From: Caldicellulosiruptor bescii DSM 6725
Lineage (GTDB): Bacteria > Bacillota > Thermoanaerobacteria > Caldicellulosiruptorales > Caldicellulosiruptoraceae
Length of the DNA: 64,000 nt
NCBI RefSeq assembly: GCF_000022325.1
Contig: NC_012034.1
Span: 2,231,501 to 2,295,500, forward strand
Direction: 5' to 3'
Shown: positions 1 to 9,302 of the stretch, one piece after another
How the letters are laid out: every line of letters begins with the position of its first letter
How positions within the stretch are numbered: position 1 is the first letter of the stretch
Translations under genes and position numbers: made by a program
The notes under the pieces: generated by a model
What the model was told of the DNA's origin: nothing
Database searches by the model: none
What the model saw: the letters and a program-made list of their open reading frames with translations, nothing else

Positions 1-674
1 GAGATTATAAGAGGCGTTCTTGCCTCATCAATCAAGATTGAGTCAACCTCGTCGATTATTGCATAGTTTAACTCTCTTTGCACAAGTTCTTCTTTGTAAA
101 TTGCCATGTTGTCTCGCAAGTAATCAAACCCAAACTCGTTATTTGTACCATAGGTAATATCACAATTGTATGCTTTTTTCCTCTCTTCATGACTAAGTCC
201 ATGGACTATAACACCAACAGAAAGCCCCAAGAAATTGTAAATAGGTCCCATCCACTCTGCGTCTCTTTTTGCCAAGTAGTCATTGACAGTTACTATATGA
301 ACACCCTTGCCCTCTAATGCGTTCAAGTACGCAGGTAGAGTTGCCACAAGGGTTTTACCTTCACCAGTTTTCATCTCTGCAATCCTGCCCTGGTGAAGAA
401 CTATTCCACCAATAAGCTGAACTCTAAAGTGACGCATCTTTAAAGTCCGCCAAGCAGCCTCTCTCACAGCTGCAAACGCTTCTGGCAGGATATCGTCCAA
501 AGTTTCGCCGTTTTTTAGCCTCTGTTTGAATATATCTGTCTTTTGCCTCAGCTCTGCATCTGTTAATCTTTCATACTCTGGTGCAAGCGACTCTATTTTG
601 TCAACTATTGGCAAGATTTTTTTTATCTCTCTTTCACTGTAGCTACCTATAAGCTTTTCAATTATCTTTAACAT
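1..674 (-). CDS. secA: Preprotein translocase ATPase SecA, N-terminal part (cut by window edge)
   Basis: This is the first ~224 residues of SecA, the cytoplasmic ATPase that drives Sec-dependent export through SecYEG. The Walker A loop MKTGEGKT lies near residue 105, followed by [15 protein letters not shown], the conserved [16 protein letters not shown] block and the DEVD (Walker B/DEAD-like) motif in [19 protein letters not shown] at the window edge. The ATG at 672-674 is preceded by a GAGGGTGG ribosome-binding site. The rest of the gene (preprotein-binding, HWD and C-terminal domains) lies outside the window. Its upstream neighbour is hpf, as in Bacillus (yvyD/hpf-secA), but a strong terminator separates the two. 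Confidence 0.97.
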
Positions 675-751
675 TTTTCCACCCTCGATTTTTGAAAATT
701 TTTTGGACATTTCAAATAATTATTTTATCACTTCTTGAATGCATATTCAAA

Positions 752-787
752 CAAAAATCCGCTCAAAGACAAAACGTCTTTGAGCGG
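752..787 (-). terminator. Intrinsic terminator after hpf
   Basis: A perfect 12-bp stem (759-770 with 776-787, 5-nt loop) is followed on the minus strand by a T-rich tract. It lies between the hpf stop and the secA start, so hpf and secA are probably separate transcripts. Confidence 0.85.
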
Positions 788-829
788 GGGCAGTGATGCT
801 CTAATTTTTTTTCTTTTGTTAAAAAAGTT

Positions 830-1378
830 TTAATATTCAGGTTCAATTAAACCATACGCGCCGTCGTTTCTTCTATATACAACATTTACCTTATCTGTAT
901 CTTGATTCAAAAATACAAAGAAGTTATGACCAAGTAAATTCATTTGCAAAATAGCCTCTTCAACACTCATTGGCTTTATTGGAAACCTCTTTGTTTTAGC
1001 AATTCTAAACTCACTATTTTCTTCTTGAACCTCTTTTTCAGGTTCTTCCAATTCAAATGTCATGTATCGCAAAGACTCTGCGTCTTTTGCCCTTTTTGCT
1101 ATCTTTGTTTTGAACTTTCTAATTTGTCTTTCCAAGGTGTCAACTACCAAATCTATGGCACTGTACATATCGTTGCTTCTCTCTTCAGCTCTCAAAATCA
1201 TTCCATGAAATGGTATTGTCACTTCAACTATATGTGAAATCTTTTCAACACTCAAAGTTACATGAACATCTGTATTTAGTTTTATATACCTCTCAAGTTT
1301 TGAAAGTTTTTTTTCAATCCTCTCTTTTAGTGCATCAGTTACTTCTATGTTTTTACCACTGATAATAAAGTTCATCAT
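830..1378 (-). CDS. hpf: Ribosome hibernation promoting factor, long form
   Basis: This 182-residue protein is a long-form HPF. The N-terminal ~100 residues are the S30AE/RaiA domain that binds the 30S decoding centre (MNFIISGKNIEVTDALKERI start, then IVEVTIPFHGMILRAEE). The C-terminal ~55 residues (KRFPIKPMSVEEAILQMNLLGHNFFVF) are the dimerisation domain that pairs 70S ribosomes into 100S particles. I chose the ATG at 1376-1378 because AAGGA lies 8 nt upstream; an ATG three codons earlier overlaps that site. A TATAAT at 1417-1422 is a likely -10 box without a clear -35. Immediately beyond it lies a cluster of DnaA boxes, which could link hpf expression to DnaA. Confidence 0.93.
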   Translation of the reverse strand: MMNFIISGKNIEVTDALKERIEKKLSKLERYIKLNTDVHVTLSVEKISHIVEVTIPFHGMILRAEERSNDMYSAIDLVVDTLERQIRKFKTKIAKRAKDAESLRYMTFELEEPEKEVQEENSEFRIAKTKRFPIKPMSVEEAILQMNLLGHNFFVFLNQDTDKVNVVYRRNDGAYGLIEPEY

Positions 1379-1416
1379 ATTGACCATCCTTTCTATGTAG
1401 AAAGTTTTGTTTTGAT

Positions 1417-1422
1417 ATTATA
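1417..1422 (-). promoter_or_regulatory. Possible -10 box of the hpf promoter
   Basis: TATAAT on the minus strand about 40 bp before the hpf start. No good -35 hexamer is visible at 16-18 bp, so this is a weak or activator-dependent promoter call. Confidence 0.4.
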
Positions 1423-1459
1423 TATATACCACCAATTTCGACTTATTTACACAAAAATT

Positions 1460-1550
1460 TTTTCCACAAAATTATCCACAATTCACAATAAGCAAATATC
1501 CATTCTGTTTAAAAATAAGCTGTGGATAATGTGGATAACTCTGTGGATAT
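1460..1550. promoter_or_regulatory. Cluster of five DnaA boxes
   Basis: Within 91 bp there are three exact copies of the consensus TTATCCACA: 1472-1480 on the plus strand, and 1521-1529 and 1530-1538 on the minus strand (the last two directly abutting). Two one-mismatch copies flank them: TTTTCCACA at 1460-1468 and TGTGGATAT at 1542-1550. DnaA-ATP binds such sites. No dnaA/dnaN/rpmH genes lie nearby, so this is more likely a DnaA regulatory or titration cluster (like the Bacillus subtilis DnaA-box clusters) than the origin itself. The spacing between the divergently oriented boxes is AT-rich. Confidence 0.75.
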
Positions 1551-1602
1551 GTTATTTCCCAAGTGTCTCTGGTTGTTGAAAAGTCCCTTTCTATTTTTTA
1601 AA

Positions 1603-1645
1603 CAAAAAGGACACATACATCTTCTATTACATGCATGTGCCCTTG
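1603..1645 (-). terminator. Intrinsic terminator after the dnaX-DUF362 operon
   Basis: An imperfect hairpin with G-U pairs (left arm about 1608-1620, right arm about 1631-1644) is followed on the minus strand by TTTTTGTTT. It lies just past the stop of the DUF362 gene. Confidence 0.7.
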
Positions 1646-1659
1646 AGTATGAGTATTTA

Positions 1660-2742
1660 CTATAAATTCTGTTTTAAAAATTCAACAATCTCGTTTGACT
1701 TTGGAGGACATCCCTGTTTGCATATATTAAAATCGCTTGTACAGCTCCCAATTCCTATTCCATCCATAACTTTCCCTTTATAGCCTTGTCCAATGTAGAG
1801 TTTTTTCGAAAGTCTTTTTAAAACCCCCTGCTCGTCTAACCTCATAAGAGCACTTATGAGGTTTGCATAACATACAGAACATGCGTCTTTTTCTTCAATA
1901 TATTTTGTGTATCTTGAAACAATTGAAGACCTTTTTGAAACTCCTGTAGGTTTTTTATCAGAATTTATTTCTATGAGATTATACTCACCTGCTTTCCCAA
2001 CACCTAATTTTTCTGCTAATCTTATGTATTCAATGTCATATGGGTTGTAACCCAAATGCTCGGCGGCAAAGCTGTCTATCAAAACTGGGTCAAAGCCAAG
2101 GGCTATAAAATCCTTCTCAACAGGATTTCCTCCCTCTTCAAAGTCAGGGTCTGGCATAATACTGTCTACCACTACAAGATGCGTTTTTATTGCTTTGTTC
2201 AAGTATGCAATTGGTTTGTGAAGACCAAGTGTGTGAAACCTTCTCTTTTCACTGTCAGGAATAAGCCCTTTGAGATTTTTCAAAGCACAGGTAAGTTGTG
2301 TCTGGCAGTGCCCTTTCAAAAGTGGAACGTTTATTAAAAAGTCGTAGCTATAGACCTGGGTACAAATGTTCAGCTCAAACCCATCAACATTTATCTTCAA
2401 AGGCCTATCGTCTTTTGTGTCAATAAGCTTTACACCGTATTTTTTTGCAATCTCAGTATACCCACAAACTTCAAACGCCCTTTTTGTGGAAGCGCCAAGC
2501 CATGCACCCTCTAAAATTGCAATGTTTTCAAACCCATTTTCCCTCAAGTACTCTATGATTCCTTCAACAATATGTGGATTTGTTGTAGCACCTGAGGTAT
2601 ACGGCTTTGCAACAACCAAGTTGGGTTTTATAGCAATTTTGCTCCCCTGAGGAATATAACTTTTCACATCGGCATACTCAAGAAGCTGTTTTGTCATAGA
2701 TTTAGCATCTTTACCGTAGATAATGTAAATGTTGTTATTCAT
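1660..2742 (-). CDS. DUF362 domain protein
   Basis: This ~360-residue protein belongs to the DUF362 family, often found with iron-sulfur proteins but without an established biochemical role. Visible family signatures are KIAIKPNLVVAKPYTSGATTNP near the N-terminus and INVPLLKGHCQTQLTCALKNLKGL in the middle. The C-terminal part has cysteines in CSVCYANL and in GSCTSDFNICKQGCPP that could bind a metal, but there is no 2[4Fe-4S] ferredoxin domain as in the second DUF362 protein of this window (37947-39074). I chose the ATG at 2740-2742, which has AAAGGAAG upstream. A GTG six codons earlier would overlap the dnaX stop. It is probably co-transcribed with dnaX. Confidence 0.8.
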   Translation of the reverse strand: MNNNIYIIYGKDAKSMTKQLLEYADVKSYIPQGSKIAIKPNLVVAKPYTSGATTNPHIVEGIIEYLRENGFENIAILEGAWLGASTKRAFEVCGYTEIAKKYGVKLIDTKDDRPLKINVDGFELNICTQVYSYDFLINVPLLKGHCQTQLTCALKNLKGLIPDSEKRRFHTLGLHKPIAYLNKAIKTHLVVVDSIMPDPDFEEGGNPVEKDFIALGFDPVLIDSFAAEHLGYNPYDIEYIRLAEKLGVGKAGEYNLIEINSDKKPTGVSKRSSIVSRYTKYIEEKDACSVCYANLISALMRLDEQGVLKRLSKKLYIGQGYKGKVMDGIGIGSCTSDFNICKQGCPPKSNEIVEFLKQNL

Positions 2743-2756
2743 ATTTTTTCTTCCTT

Positions 2757-4361
2757 TCACTCTTTTATAGTAATCTCTGTGTCAGGGAAGATGTCCTTGA
2801 GCTTGTTTATTATCTCTTGGTCAGACACAGTATTTTCTTTAAATGGCTCTTGCTTTTCAACATCAACAGAGACCTCACCTTCATACCCCACAATCCTCTT
2901 TAGAATTGACTTAAAATACTCCATGTTTCTGCTCAAAACCTCTGCAAACACACTATCTTCCTGCTTAAAACATACCTTCACACCATTTTCTAACCTCAGG
3001 CTGGCATTTTGAAGAACATGCGAAAGTCCCGGCTTTTCCTCCTTGATAGCCTCTTTTATTTCCTGCCACCTGCTCAAAATCTCAGACCATGAAAAAGATG
3101 CATTGCTGTCCACACCTTCTGCGCTTTTGTCAGCTATATGCGAGATCTTTTGCTCTTGTTTTGTAGATTGAGCCTTGTCAAGTTTCATGGCTTCAAAAGC
3201 CTTGGGATTTTCGGCAAGCTGAGAAAGCTTTGTCTCAAGTTTTCGAACTCTTTCAATGAGCGTTTCAAATGAGGTGTCAAACTGGCTATCGCAAAGTTTT
3301 ATTGTATTTATCTCAAGCAAAACCTTTGGAAATCTTGTCCAGCGTATCTGGTTGGCAGTGTCAATAAGCATCTTTATGATTGAAACAAGTCTGTTTGAAT
3401 CAACAAGGTTTGATATGTTAATGACAAAATCTTTATCACTTTCAAGCATGTCAACCAAAACATCTTTTGCACCAAGTCGTAAAATCAGTGCACTTCTCAA
3501 AAGCTTCACAGCTTCTTCTAAAAAAGTATTTACATCCATTCCTTCATCCCAAAGCCTATTTATAACTTTGAGTCCTTTGTTGGAATCATTTTCTACAATA
3601 GCAGCAATATATTCTTTCACTATCTCGGTTGATGTAACACCTAAAAGGTTTGCAACAAACTTGTAGGTTATATGTTCATCAGATGTATTCATGCACCTTT
3701 CTAATATGGTCAAAGCATCCCTCAGAGCACCTTCTGCCTTTTGTGAGATCAAATACAGGGCATTATCGTCAATTGATATATTTTCCATCTGAACAATCTT
3801 TTTGAGCCTTTCATATATGTCCTTTACAGAAATCCTTTTAAAATCAAACCTCTGACATCTTGAAAGAATGGTTGCAGGTACTTTTTGAATATCTGTGGTT
3901 GCCAGAATAAAAAGTGCATGGGAGGGGGGCTCTTCAAGGGTTTTTAAAAGCGCGTTGAAAGCCCCTGTTGAGAGCATGTGCACCTCGTCTATTATATATA
4001 CCTTCTTTTTGCAAACAGAAGGTGGGTACCTGACCTCGTCCCTGATTTGCCTCACGTCGTTGACACTTGTGTTTGATGCAGCGTCAATCTCCAAAACATC
4101 AAGCGTCTTTTCATCCAAGATGCTTCTGCATATCTCACATTCGTTGCACGGATTCCCATCCTTGGGATTCAAACAGTTCACAGCTCTTGACATTATTTTT
4201 GCAGTTGTTGTCTTGCCAGTGCCTCTCGGGCCGCAAAAGATGTATGCGTGAGCTACTTTGTCCTGTTTTATTTGATTTTTTAAAGTCCTTGTTATATGCT
4301 CTTGTGCAACAACATCTTCAAACACCTTAGGCCTATATTTCCTGTAAAGTGCTATGTGCAT
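2757..4361 (-). CDS. dnaX: DNA polymerase III subunit gamma/tau
   Basis: This is the clamp-loader ATPase of the replicative polymerase (534 residues). It has the Walker A GPRGTGKTTTAK, a zinc-binding cysteine set (CLNPKDGNPCNECEIC), the Walker B DEVHMLS and the sensor region LATTDIQKVPATILSRCQRFDF. The C-terminal part after residue ~370 is variable, as expected for the tau extension. The start was placed at the ATG 4359-4361 (MHIALYRKYRPKVF), with AAGGGTG 6 nt upstream; an in-frame GTG three codons earlier lies within this site. In many Firmicutes dnaX precedes ybaB and recR, but here it is followed by a DUF362 gene and preceded by rnr. Confidence 0.96.
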   Translation of the reverse strand: MHIALYRKYRPKVFEDVVAQEHITRTLKNQIKQDKVAHAYIFCGPRGTGKTTTAKIMSRAVNCLNPKDGNPCNECEICRSILDEKTLDVLEIDAASNTSVNDVRQIRDEVRYPPSVCKKKVYIIDEVHMLSTGAFNALLKTLEEPPSHALFILATTDIQKVPATILSRCQRFDFKRISVKDIYERLKKIVQMENISIDDNALYLISQKAEGALRDALTILERCMNTSDEHITYKFVANLLGVTSTEIVKEYIAAIVENDSNKGLKVINRLWDEGMDVNTFLEEAVKLLRSALILRLGAKDVLVDMLESDKDFVINISNLVDSNRLVSIIKMLIDTANQIRWTRFPKVLLEINTIKLCDSQFDTSFETLIERVRKLETKLSQLAENPKAFEAMKLDKAQSTKQEQKISHIADKSAEGVDSNASFSWSEILSRWQEIKEAIKEEKPGLSHVLQNASLRLENGVKVCFKQEDSVFAEVLSRNMEYFKSILKRIVGYEGEVSVDVEKQEPFKENTVSDQEIINKLKDIFPDTEITIKE

Positions 4362-4378
4362 ACTTATCACCCTTTTTT

Positions 4379-6529
4379 CTACATTTTGAGTTTCTCAACA
4401 ACAGAAAACTCAATTTGTCTTAGCGGGACATTGGCGTCAATGAGCATTACTTTTACCCTGTCACCTATCTTGTATACCTTTTTGGACTTCTCGCCTATTA
4501 GCTGGTAAGTTTTTTCATTAAAGACATAATAATCATCTTCTAAAGTGCTGACTCTTACTAGGCCTTCTATTGTATTTTCAAGCTCTACAAAAAATCCAAA
4601 AGGCGTGACATTCGAAATAATTCCTTCAAAGACCTGACCAATCTTGTCCTGCATAAATTCAACCTTCTTGAGGTCAATTGTTTCCCTTTCTGCTTCTTCT
4701 GCAACTCTTTCTCTCTGTGACGTCCACTTTGCAATCTCTGGCATTTTAAGTTTTAATTTTTGAGCCTTCTTCTCTGTCATTTTACCTTTTAATACATCTT
4801 TCATAATTCTGTGGATGACAAGGTCAGGATACCTTCTAATTGGAGAGGTAAAGTGACAATAGTATTCTGTAGAAAGGCCAAAGTGGCCAAGATTTTCTTC
4901 ACAGTATCTGGCTTTTTTTAGCGACCTCAAACACAAAGTATGAATGACCCTTTCTTCTGGTGTTCCACGGCTTTGCTCTAAAACCGCCTGCAAAGCTTTG
5001 GGATGTACCTTGTTTGAAATACCTTTTAGAACATACCCCATATTGTATATGAACTCTGCAAATTGATAAATCTTTTCAATATCAGGTTCTTCATGAACCC
5101 TGTACAAAAACGGAACATTTAACCAGTAAAAATGATTTGCAACTGTTTCATTACAAATCAACATAAACTCTTCAATTATTTTATTAGAGATTGTAAGCTC
5201 ATATCGAACAACATCTATAGGTTTGCCGTTTTTGTCCAGTATGACTTTTGTCTCGTCAAAATCAAAGTCCAAAGCCCCTCTTTTCATTCTCTTTTCTCGC
5301 AGGATAAGTGCAAGCTCGCGCATTAGCTCTAAGTCTTCTCTTATATGTTCATACCTTTTCAAAAGCTCCTTGTCCTCTTCTTTAAGAATCTTTGTAACAT
5401 TTGTATAGGTCATTCTCTCTTTGCTTCTTATAACACTTTCAAATATATCATGTTTTACAACATTTCCTTGCTTATCAATCTCCATCATAACTGAAAACGT
5501 CAACCTGTCAACATTGGGATTAAGTGAACAGATACCATTTGAAAGCTTAAACGGAAGCATTGGGATGACTCTGTCAACAAGATACACAGACGTTCCGCGC
5601 CTGTAAGCTTCCTTGTCAAGATGGGTGTTTGGTTTTACATAGTGGCTCACATCTGCAATATGAACACCTAAAAGATAGTTCCCATTTGGAAGTTTTTTGA
5701 TAGACACTGCATCGTCAAAGTCTTTTGCATCTTCACCATCGATTGTAAAGATTGTTAAGTTGCGCAGGTCAACCCTTCCTTCTAAATCCTCTTCTGTCAC
5801 TTCATCAGGAATATTCTCAACTTCTTTTAATACCTCTTTCGGAAATTCCTCGTCAAGTTCATATTTCTTGATTATTGAGAGAATGTCAACACCTTTGGCA
5901 TTTTCATACCCCAAAATCTCAACAATTTTCCCTTCAGGATTTCTTCTTTTTTCAGGATACCTTGTAATCTCAACAACAACCTTCTGACCTGTCTTTGCTT
6001 TATTCTTACCGCTCTTTGGAATATAGATATCATATGTTATCCTCTGGTCATCTGGAATAACAAAACCAAAGTTTTTGCTATCCTCATACCTTCCAACAAC
6101 TTTTGTAATACTCCTTTGTAAAATTCTCTCAACATATCCTTCAATTTTTTTACCCTCAACAGGAACAGCAGAAAGTGCCTTGACAAGCACTCTGTCTCCA
6201 TGCATAGCACCATTCATGTTCTCAGGTGAAATATAAATATCTGGAACATTTGGATTGTCAGGAATCAGAAAACCATAGCCGCGCGGATTTACCTCAAGCA
6301 CTCCAGCAAACAAGTTCATCTCTTCGGCAAGACCAAACCTGCCACGCTTCGTCTTTACAATCTTGCCCTCTTGTTCTAATTCTTCTAATATCTTCCTGAG
6401 AAGCTTTTCATCTTTTTCTTGCCAGTTCAAAATCTCAAGGATTTCTGAAAAGGTCATGGGATGATAACTTTCTTCCTGAAAAAGATTTAAAACCTCCTGT
6501 TTTTTCTCTTCAAATTTAATTTTTTTCAA
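4379..6529 (-). CDS. rnr: Ribonuclease R
   Basis: This 716-residue RNase R is a processive 3'-5' hydrolytic exoribonuclease that degrades structured RNA and takes part in trans-translation quality control. An N-terminal winged-helix region (residues 1-65) is followed by cold-shock/OB domains, and the RNB catalytic domain carries the acidic cluster TIDGEDAKDFDDAVSI. A C-terminal S1 domain contains GQVFEGIISNVTPFGFFVEL. The start appears to be TTG at 6527-6529, with AGGATG 12 nt upstream and no ATG nearby. secG-rnr is a conserved Firmicutes neighbourhood. Here an HD-domain gene and a transposon lie between the two, and smpB/ssrA are not present. Confidence 0.95.
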   Translation of the reverse strand: MKKIKFEEKKQEVLNLFQEESYHPMTFSEILEILNWQEKDEKLLRKILEELEQEGKIVKTKRGRFGLAEEMNLFAGVLEVNPRGYGFLIPDNPNVPDIYISPENMNGAMHGDRVLVKALSAVPVEGKKIEGYVERILQRSITKVVGRYEDSKNFGFVIPDDQRITYDIYIPKSGKNKAKTGQKVVVEITRYPEKRRNPEGKIVEILGYENAKGVDILSIIKKYELDEEFPKEVLKEVENIPDEVTEEDLEGRVDLRNLTIFTIDGEDAKDFDDAVSIKKLPNGNYLLGVHIADVSHYVKPNTHLDKEAYRRGTSVYLVDRVIPMLPFKLSNGICSLNPNVDRLTFSVMMEIDKQGNVVKHDIFESVIRSKERMTYTNVTKILKEEDKELLKRYEHIREDLELMRELALILREKRMKRGALDFDFDETKVILDKNGKPIDVVRYELTISNKIIEEFMLICNETVANHFYWLNVPFLYRVHEEPDIEKIYQFAEFIYNMGYVLKGISNKVHPKALQAVLEQSRGTPEERVIHTLCLRSLKKARYCEENLGHFGLSTEYYCHFTSPIRRYPDLVIHRIMKDVLKGKMTEKKAQKLKLKMPEIAKWTSQRERVAEEAERETIDLKKVEFMQDKIGQVFEGIISNVTPFGFFVELENTIEGLVRVSTLEDDYYVFNEKTYQLIGEKSKKVYKIGDRVKVMLIDANVPLRQIEFSVVEKLKM

Positions 6530-6555
6530 GGGACTATCACATCCTTTTTCTAAAT

Positions 6556-7113
6556 TTACAATCCAAGATCATTAGATATTTTTTGCATAGCTTTAAGGGC
6601 TATTCCCAAAAATTCTTCAAGTTCAAGTCCAAGTTCAGAACATGCTTTCATCTGTTCTCTGTTTGCACCCTTTGCAAAGCTTTTTTCATTAAATCTGTTT
6701 AATAAAAACGGCACTGTCACATCCGAAAGTTTTTTTGATGGTAGAATCAGCGCACCTGCAACAATAAAACCTGAAGTTGGGTCAACACAGTAAAGAGCTT
6801 TATCCAAAAGTGAAAGTCTTGGAAGACCATGTGCGTCGTTGTGAACCTTCACAGCATACACAATGTCCTTGTCAAACCCCAAATCCTCCAAAATTTTTGC
6901 ACCAACTAAGCTGTGTGCATTAGGGTCATTTTTGGTATCTTCATAATCTATATCATGAACAAGCCCACAAATCCCCCACTTGTCCATATCCTGTTCAAAA
7001 TAGCATGCAAGCTCGCGCATGATAGCCTCACAAGCCAGACAATGTTTCAGTAAATTTTGTGTCTTTATTCTCTTTTTGAGCTCCTCAAGTGCAATTTCAC
7101 GTGCAACACTCAT
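6556..7113 (-). CDS. HD-domain hydrolase family protein
   Basis: This 185-residue protein is a small HD-superfamily metal-dependent phosphohydrolase of unknown substrate. The metal-binding pattern is visible: H of LLKHCLACE, the HD pair in CGLVHDIDYEDTKND, HSLVGAK and the later H/D residues in VKVHNDAHG and ALYCVDPTSG. This subgroup (predicted HD hydrolases with VHDIDYE) is common in Clostridia. The ATG at 7111-7113 is preceded by AGGAAAG at about 7120-7126, part of which lies in the 9-bp sequence repeated at the two ends of the adjacent IS607 element. It heads the HD-rnr-dnaX-DUF362 operon, whose promoter is now separated from it by the transposon. Confidence 0.82.
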   Translation of the reverse strand: MSVAREIALEELKKRIKTQNLLKHCLACEAIMRELACYFEQDMDKWGICGLVHDIDYEDTKNDPNAHSLVGAKILEDLGFDKDIVYAVKVHNDAHGLPRLSLLDKALYCVDPTSGFIVAGALILPSKKLSDVTVPFLLNRFNEKSFAKGANREQMKACSELGLELEEFLGIALKAMQKISNDLGL

Positions 7114-7137
7114 TCAAAACTTTCCTGGTCAACCAAA

Positions 7138-7455
7138 CTGTGCAAAATTGCACAGTATTGGCGGCTGGGGTATTTGTAGTCCGCCTTTCAGGCTTTCCCA
7201 GCCCCAGCAGGCGGTATTTGGGAAAGCCATAGCCCCTGCCCCAAGAAACAGGAACTTACGCCCTTACAGGTCTTCCCCACTTGCCCTGAAATCAAAAGCG
7301 ATTTCAAGACAGACATATCACGCAGGACTCTGTCAGGGGAGAGTGGCGTTACCACCGCTACCCTGAGAACTCGCCAGGGATTGTGTTTTTTGCCACGACT
7401 ACCCGCGCTTGTTCCATCCAGAGGCACGGATAGCCTCCCTGGCTCACTCCCAGAG
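7138..7455 (-). ncRNA. Putative TnpB-associated guide RNA (omega RNA) at the element's right end
   Basis: TnpB nucleases use an RNA made from the 3' end of tnpB and the element's right end. This GC-rich stretch, reading from within the tnpB 3' end to the boundary, is rich in complementary segments: 7191-7199 with 7220-7228 (9 bp), 7164-7170 with 7202-7208 (7 bp) and 7181-7186 with 7209-7214 (6 bp). These pairings cross each other, so at least two can form a pseudoknot. The tip carries the inverted repeat 7138-7145/7148-7155. The guide would be the host sequence just past 7124, which is the 5' end of the HD gene. The 5' end given (7455) is approximate, placed where the tnpB reading frame stops looking protein-like. 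Confidence 0.6.
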
Positions 7456-8750
7456 CTTTGTAAAAACTTTATCGCTCTATCTATCGTTTTGAGTTGTTTT
7501 TTCCTCAGATGTTTGTTCTTGACTACCTTCCTTACATACTCTTTTAGCTCTTCCAGGTTGTTTACATCAAGCCTACTAAGAAGCAGCATATAATTGTGCG
7601 GTATCCTTTCTCTCAAACCAAGTCCTCTTCGCGCTATTACATACGCTGCCGCAATATCCTTGCTCACCATATACTGCGGTGCATACTTCAACATCCCTAT
7701 CACAGAAGTATACGCCGGGTCTACTTCTATAACCTCTACTCCTTCCCGTTTTGCCAGAAGTTTTACCTTCTCCAAAAGTAATCTGCTTCCAAAATAGTGC
7801 CTTATCCGTCTTGATTTTCTACCTGAAAAGTCGCCTCTTCTGCCCCTGTCCTGTATGCTAAGGTTCTCAATCACTATCGCTTTTTGCTTCTCTTTCGCCA
7901 TTTGTACTATCATGTGTGCATACTGCCACCTGTAATACTCTCTCTTGCTTGAGCTTCCACTCTCAAGCTTCTCAAGTGGTATTCTGCCATATCCTAGAAA
8001 CTGTCCGTACTCATCTGTTTCTGCCCATGCAACATTCTTTGGATATGCGTTAGTGTCTATCCCTATAACTCCATTTGCTCTCGTTATCGCAGGCTTGGGG
8101 AAAACTTCTTCAACGGTGAAGTAGGCATATACTACACCGTTTTTGAGTTTCAGTTCTACAGAATAAGGTCCACTAAAGCTGCTTATTGCTTGTAGCAGTA
8201 GGTTCCTATCCATGTATGTCTTACCTTTCATCTTCCATCCAGCTTGTATCGTCGCATATACGTACTCTCTTTTTCCTACGTTAATCCTGAGTTTTGTGAA
8301 GTTCCCGTCTATCTCAATCCTTGTATTGAGATTACCTTTCTTGCTCCTGTCTCCTCTTGAGTACAGATTCCCCTTCCTCTTCTCCTGCCACTCTCGTTGA
8401 AGTTTCCTATATACCTTGCCGTTTATGTGCCGCCTCTTTAGTTTTTCAAAAAGTTGCCTACCACCAAAAATGACCTTTTCAGGATTTTCTCCTCTTCCTT
8501 TGCATAAGTTTAAAACACTGTTTGCTTTCATTATTGCATCATCAACGTATCGGGAATTAAGATTAAAAATTCCTTGCAGCTCTCTTTTGAGTTCATTCCT
8601 TTTATGCCTTTCCAGTAGTCTCTTATATGCATACCTCATACAAGAGGACCATCTTCTCATAAGATCTAATACTGCCTTTTTGTCTTCCTCTCTATCGAAC
8701 ACTAACTTCGCCTGAACTGTTACCATGTCTTTTAGCACCTCTTTGTCCAT
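7188..8750 (-). CDS. tnpB: TnpB-family RNA-guided nuclease of IS607 element
   Basis: TnpB is the transposon-encoded, RNA-guided relative of Cas12. The RuvC-like triad appears intact: D232 in VIGIDTNAYP, E295 in AIVIENLSI and D365 in VSKDIAAAYVIARR. The usual four-cysteine zinc finger between the second and third motifs is missing; the region reads VEVIEVDPAYTSVIGMLKYAPQY. Residues beyond ~435 look like translated structured RNA rather than a folded domain. The start ATG at 8748-8750 has GAGG upstream; a TTG five codons earlier is an alternative. The start overlaps the 3' end of tnpA, so translation may be coupled. The 520-residue length is longer than typical TnpB (~400), mostly because of the tail. 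Confidence 0.85.
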   Translation of the reverse strand: MDKEVLKDMVTVQAKLVFDREEDKKAVLDLMRRWSSCMRYAYKRLLERHKRNELKRELQGIFNLNSRYVDDAIMKANSVLNLCKGRGENPEKVIFGGRQLFEKLKRRHINGKVYRKLQREWQEKRKGNLYSRGDRSKKGNLNTRIEIDGNFTKLRINVGKREYVYATIQAGWKMKGKTYMDRNLLLQAISSFSGPYSVELKLKNGVVYAYFTVEEVFPKPAITRANGVIGIDTNAYPKNVAWAETDEYGQFLGYGRIPLEKLESGSSSKREYYRWQYAHMIVQMAKEKQKAIVIENLSIQDRGRRGDFSGRKSRRIRHYFGSRLLLEKVKLLAKREGVEVIEVDPAYTSVIGMLKYAPQYMVSKDIAAAYVIARRGLGLRERIPHNYMLLLSRLDVNNLEELKEYVRKVVKNKHLRKKQLKTIDRAIKFLQSSGSEPGRLSVPLDGTSAGSRGKKHNPWRVLRVAVVTPLSPDRVLRDMSVLKSLLISGQVGKTCKGVSSCFLGQGLWLSQIPPAGAGKA

Positions 8751-9302
8751 AAATCCTCGCTGCAAAAGATGTTACTATCGCTATTAAGTCCTCTGCCAGT
8801 TCTCTGTTTATATCTTCTTCATTTTCTCTGCCATTTAACACTACCAGTTCTACCCCAAAGCTCTCCATGAAAAACTTAAGATATTTAAATCCAAACCTTG
8901 CAAGTCTGTCTGGATACTCTATTACAACTTTTGTAACTTCTCCTCTTTTGATTCTGTTCAAAAGTTTTAATAGTCCTCTCCTGTTTTCATCTACTTTGCT
9001 GGCTATTTCAGATATAACTTCATACTGCCAACCTTGAGAGACTTGGCATATTCTTCAAGTCTTCTAATTTGGTTTTTAAGGTACTCTTCTTGCTTTTTAG
9101 TGGAGACTCTTGCATACAAAACAACGGTTGGTTTTGGTTTTTCCTTTATCATGCCAAGTAGTTTTTCTATGTCTTCTTTTTTATACCTTCTCCTTCCCTT
9201 CGGTGTCCTGAGAGGTGTTATTAACCCTTCCTTCTCCCAGTTTATTAGTGTTCTTCGGCAGATAGAATATATCTTTTTAACTTTTTGCACACTTAGCAAC
9301 AT
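8692..9302 (-). pseudogene. tnpA: IS607 serine recombinase TnpA, frameshifted
   Basis: The first ~90 residues (MerR-like helix-turn-helix SICRRTLINWEKEGLITPLR, then the resolvase start VVLYARVSTKKQEEYLKNQI) read in one frame and stop at 9003. The remainder (GWQYEVISEIASKVDENRRG, then VIEYPDRLARFGFKYL and ELAEDLIAIVTSFAARIYG) continues in another frame to 8692. The break is near 9030-9034, in the codons for SLK-GWQ. One missing G in an AAGG(G)TTGG run would explain it. The catalytic serine (ARVS) is retained, but the two halves are separated, so recombinase is probably not made unless frameshifting occurs. Its ribosome-binding site AGGTGA includes bases of the boundary 9-mer. Confidence 0.88.

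Follow-up and report, generated by a model that had tools for sequence, protein, structure and literature searches.

A DnaA-box array upstream of hpf in Caldicellulosiruptor bescii, recurrent in Bacillota, as a candidate DnaA-holding cluster outside oriC

Gene neighborhood and architecture of the array

The window, i.e., the whole 64-kb stretch analysed (C1:2231501-2295500), is part of the 2,919,718 bp chromosome of C. bescii, in which dnaA is located at the chromosome start; coordinates below are those of the window unless a contig or locus name precedes them. On its minus strand, hpf (830-1387) codes for a long-form ribosome hibernation promoting factor with a Ribosomal_S30AE and a C-terminal domain (Pfam), and a gene for a DUF362 protein (1660-2760, minus strand, Pfam) follows dnaX and precedes an array of DnaA boxes. 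The first-pass annotation had placed these boxes upstream of the ribosome-hibernation gene, which is the case, and just past the end of the dnaX transcript, where the actual neighbor is the DUF362 gene. Between the array and the hpf start (1387), the conserved sequence GTATATATATAAT contains a TATAAT (1417-1422, minus strand), the probable -10 element of the hpf promoter, which does not vary within the genus and is also present in the sister genus G012; no convincing -35 element was seen upstream of this TATAAT. After the DUF362 gene, a hairpin-like repeat with a T-run was read from the sequence (about 1597-1645), for which the terminator scan listed no terminator, and the search for RNA elements gave no Rfam match in 1-9000. 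Elsewhere in the window (7188-8961), TnpB-like and serine-recombinase-like ORFs resemble an IS607-type insertion.

The array is intergenic, AT-rich and box-rich. Within 91 bp (1460-1550) it contains three exact and two one-mismatch DnaA boxes, two of them abutting, as the first-pass annotation had stated. Reading the minus strand toward hpf, there is an outer box, B0 (TTTTCAACA, two mismatches, 1574-1582), then, at steps of 32, 12 and 9 bp, B1 (ATATCCACA, one mismatch, 1542-1550), B2 (exact TTATCCACA, 1530-1538) and B3 (exact TTATCCACA, 1521-1529), which abuts B2. A 40-bp spacer separates B3 from two boxes on the plus strand, inverted relative to B1-B3, B4 (exact TTATCCACA, 1472-1480) and B5 (TTTTCCACA, one mismatch, 1460-1468; TTATCCACA in some relatives), followed by the weak box-like ATTTACACA (1445-1453, plus strand). 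Including the weaker outer boxes, the array thus spans about 1445-1582, and its core is characterized by a stereotyped 12-9 bp spacing with the outer box about 31 bp upstream. Judging from the sequence, ATTTACACA may be part of the hpf promoter, since a similar TGTGTAAA is kept at the hpf promoter of the sister genus G012, where the array is absent.

Such a density of boxes is far from what chance would give, as had been proposed. When the 64-kb window was simulated 400 times with an order-2 Markov model and boxes with at most one mismatch were counted, the maximum in any 91 bp was three boxes (five are observed), and no simulation (0/400) placed even two exact boxes together, against the three observed. 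A chance cluster is therefore ruled out by the simulation and by the conservation described below. Pattern searches of the whole genome retrieved 49 exact DnaA boxes, which form clusters solely around dnaA/oriC and at the array; the latter is the sole non-oriC cluster when exact boxes are counted, and the looser TTATNCACA occurs at chance level (156 sites genome-wide, 154 for the reversed control). A further cluster built purely of degenerate boxes might conceivably exist beyond the TTATNCACA matches listed.

A secondary or relict replication origin would also be an AT-rich, box-rich intergenic segment, and an origin lies beside dnaA or at a switch of GC skew. The array is at neither: dnaA (C1:378-869), which has box clusters of its own, is 687 kb distant, at position 1 of the chromosome, and the skew on the two sides of the array is -0.21 (left) and -0.17 (right), with no switch, while at dnaA it is negative just before and positive just after the gene. 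The claim of the first-pass annotation that the boxes are neither next to dnaA nor part of oriC thus holds, its proposed skew check having revealed no sign change with dnaA nearby, and the position of dnaA together with the skew rules out the origin reading, which we consider extremely improbable.

Conservation in Caldicellulosiruptor and across Bacillota

Conservation in close relatives, the other check that had been suggested, gave a clear answer: the boxes were found in all 12 Caldicellulosiruptor genomes, 133-134 bp upstream of hpf and adjoining the conserved hpf promoter. Mean pairwise identity in the genus is 95-98% for B1, B2 and B3 and 94% for B5, against 64% for the flank on the DUF362 side. 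B0 (TTTTCAACA) is invariant in 12/12 genomes amid varying surrounding sequence, and in several species B4 is a weaker or degenerate box. A strictly conserved distance from oriC was also considered and rejected, because the distance varies: for most of the genus it amounts to 0.18-0.28 of the chromosome, but it is 0.50 in G011 and 0.07-0.39 elsewhere (several chromosome sizes being rounded).

For a wider search we used the pattern TTATNCACANNNTTATCCACATTATCCACA, with up to three mismatches, and the reversed pattern as control. It matches 35 of the 37 genomes of the class, with a single match in 33 of these, and 205 of the 398 genomes sampled in the phylum, whereas the reversed control gave no match in either search. 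The two genomes of the class that lack the pattern have a degenerate cluster in the corresponding place upstream of hpf. We compared the positions of array and hpf in 113 array-bearing Bacillota genomes, and in 65 of them, belonging to 17 families, the array is 119-7893 bp upstream of hpf, in all 65 cases in the orientation of hpf; random placement would give an estimated 0.2 such genomes. Only one array in this set is near dnaA. The outer box is part of the layout outside the genus as well, since 34 of 82 non-redundant arrays have a box with at most one mismatch 30-32 bp upstream of B1, compared with a background of 0.05 per offset.

The order of genes at these loci recurs: a fliS/fliT, comF-like or zf_Tbcl gene, the array, an amino-acid ABC transporter (SBP, permease, ATPase), a cold-shock gene, hpf and secA, the transporter and cold-shock genes being optional. 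The gene directly downstream of the array varies (hpf, the csp gene or the SBP-permease-ATPase operon), and a transporter operon of 2.4-3.3 kb often stands between array and hpf. The genes in between share the orientation of hpf and, in some lineages, are separated by short gaps. Boxes upstream of hpf are also present in Moorella, Thermoanaerobacter (2.5 kb upstream), Chengkuizengella and several Paenibacillus; at the Paenibacillus loci they run opposite to the other arrays and, for this reason, could have arisen independently or by inversion. Four Paenibacillus loci (L044, L061, L065 and L079) share an additional DnaA-box cluster on the downstream side of hpf, about 5.5-6.5 kb from its start.

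The array is not universal: the pattern is absent from 193 of the 398 sampled Bacillota genomes (about half), and of 30 genomes without the pattern that were checked, 29 lack any cluster in the 1.5 kb upstream of hpf. A universal link between array and hpf is ruled out on the same ground, a cluster being present there in only 1/30. Recurrence upstream of hpf in at least 17 families suggests, from sequence comparison, that we are probably dealing with an old DnaA-holding site that helps to time replication and not with an accident.

Arrays away from hpf

The sister genus G012 has hpf without the array, its promoter keeping TGTGTAAA...GTATATATATAAT, and carries three arrays elsewhere (L211:8617-8679, L211:10896-10984 and L212:7274-7334). 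One of these, between two carbohydrate-related genes at an unrelated locus, resembles the Caldicellulosiruptor array over about 130 bp, with flank matches of z = 12.5 and 7.5 in two comparisons. Two G012 arrays are 2.3 kb apart and flank one glycosidase-like gene. Genus g6 (nine genomes) likewise has hpf without the array, and those inspected (L207-L209) have one immediately upstream of a UvrD/HelD-like helicase gene; outside the core, the comparison gave no support for homology of these arrays to those at hpf (flank z about 1). All ten genomes of the class without an array at hpf (G012 and the nine g6 genomes) thus carry one to three arrays elsewhere, while in the genomes with an hpf array no second array was found by the TTATNCACANNNTTATCCACATTATCCACA pattern. 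In G020 array and hpf are on different contigs, the array standing before the transporter genes that precede hpf in relatives. Loss at hpf together with presence elsewhere is suggestive of an array that is separable from hpf, and falls short of proof because only two evolutionary events are involved.

Functional interpretation

In line with recognition by DnaA, the boxes match its consensus and the genome encodes a single DnaA, in which the DNA-binding domain is conserved. We propose, with a probability of roughly 0.55, that the array is an extra-oriC DnaA-box cluster of the titration type. Such clusters (DBCs) were described in B. subtilis by Okumura et al. (2012), as reported in PMC5295017 and PMC4447404, and deletion of six of them leads to early initiation (PMC5295017). 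Like them, the array is a compact intergenic DnaA-box cluster away from oriC and beyond chance, in the same phylum, and some of the B. subtilis clusters are in promoters as well. The strongest non-origin DnaA regions of B. subtilis (ywcI/vpr, gcp/ydiF, trmE, ywlC, yqeG/sda and yydA; PMC4447404) do not include hpf (yvyD), so that the array has no orthologous position among them, a feature that does not define the type. It also differs from the B. subtilis clusters in being one locus that is kept in many families and has a fixed 31-12-9 arrangement. The kind is already known, while the conserved hpf-side locus is absent from the literature searched, in which we also found no report of a link between DnaA and hpf.

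According to this proposal the array would be replicated well after oriC, and its head-to-tail core B1-B2-B3 with the flanking boxes would allow cooperative binding of several DnaA molecules. We infer that the bound DnaA would lower the amount of free DnaA and so help to keep initiation from occurring too early or more than once, the joint effect of the six clusters in B. subtilis. The place upstream of hpf would be the ancestral position in Bacillota, mostly retained by synteny, of an array that is itself mobile. Three observations fit titration less well: the position is better conserved than pure titration needs, about half of the sampled Bacillota genomes are without the pattern, and in the genus the array adjoins the hpf promoter.

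The last of these bears on the alternative that the array is a DnaA-responsive operator, at which DnaA represses or activates hpf, or the operon of ABC transporter, csp and hpf, tying ribosome hibernation to the replication state. The adjoining promoter in 12/12 genus genomes, the invariably upstream and co-oriented placement of the hpf-linked arrays, and the co-oriented, in some lineages closely spaced, intervening genes are in line with it, and B. subtilis DnaA regulates genes with clustered boxes, e.g., sda, ywlC and vpr (PMC4447404). The linkage to the hpf promoter gives a mixed picture, being constant in the genus, whereas elsewhere the 2.4-3.3 kb transporter operon often separates the two or the array is lost. 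Unlike at DnaA-regulated promoters such as that of sda, where a box cluster also stands beside a promoter, the adjoining gene is not constant among relatives. Further points against an operator are that the core promoter of hpf is retained in G012 although the array is gone, the g6 array stands at the helicase gene, the Paenibacillus boxes in the corresponding place are reversed, and 29/30 pattern-negative genomes have hpf without a cluster. DnaA control of hpf, raised in the first-pass annotation, is thus a tentative and rather unlikely explanation, less supported than titration given the transporter operon in between and the loss from hpf in two lineages, although a holding function and control of hpf could coexist in one array. 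We favor a titration cluster, a portable chromosomal site for DnaA binding, over an operator specific to hpf, since the array left hpf in two lineages, arrays occur elsewhere and one copy matches over about 130 bp.

Among 80 non-redundant arrays, 12 have a heptamer, TTCGACA, at +65 to +68 relative to the array start. All 12 are at hpf loci (L196, L198, L199, L201-L203, L205, L206, L215, L216, L219 and L024), and the C. bescii array lacks the heptamer. We take it to be possibly a Spo0A box, and it could also be a weak DnaA box. An unlikely extension of the operator idea is a DnaA switch, ancestral to much of Bacillota, that sets hpf by the replication state, possibly together with Spo0A; if true, it would couple replication initiation to ribosome hibernation.

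The proposal of a titration or reactivation site in the first-pass annotation survives in its first half, which fits best, while DARS-type reactivation drew no specific support. A site similar to datA or DARS would change the nucleotide state of DnaA instead of just holding the protein, and the head-to-tail core with inverted boxes, the fixed spacing and the conserved spacer do point to a defined nucleoprotein complex and not to loose boxes. Like the array, datA and DARS1/DARS2 of E. coli are non-coding DnaA-box loci outside oriC with a conserved position, but they have another architecture, act on the nucleotide state of DnaA and depend on E. coli partners, IHF and Fis. B. subtilis has neither IHF nor datA/DARS loci (2026 review, PMC13220808), and we regard this explanation as very unlikely.

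Knowledge of how DnaA is restrained is scant outside B. subtilis and E. coli. As a single, deeply conserved and stereotyped array that one pattern can find, the preferred titration cluster would be easy to target by deletion, with one cluster to remove in place of six, in those Clostridia and Thermoanaerobacteria that are genetically tractable, where deletion would separate titration from control of genes by DnaA. Its recurring place beside hpf raises the question of whether dormancy and replication control have a common site.

Other DnaA-box clusters

DnaA-box clusters were also observed beside a 5-formyltetrahydrofolate cyclo-ligase gene in G157 (L224:4203-4369) and G049 (L223:3401-3562), that of G157 lying between the cyclo-ligase gene and tsaD/gcp. 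They may represent a second conserved cluster, since B. subtilis has a strong DnaA site downstream of gcp. In E. coli, ribonucleotide reductase is under DnaA control, and an array of G049 (L222:3711-3740) is about 20 bp upstream of a ribonucleotide reductase gene.
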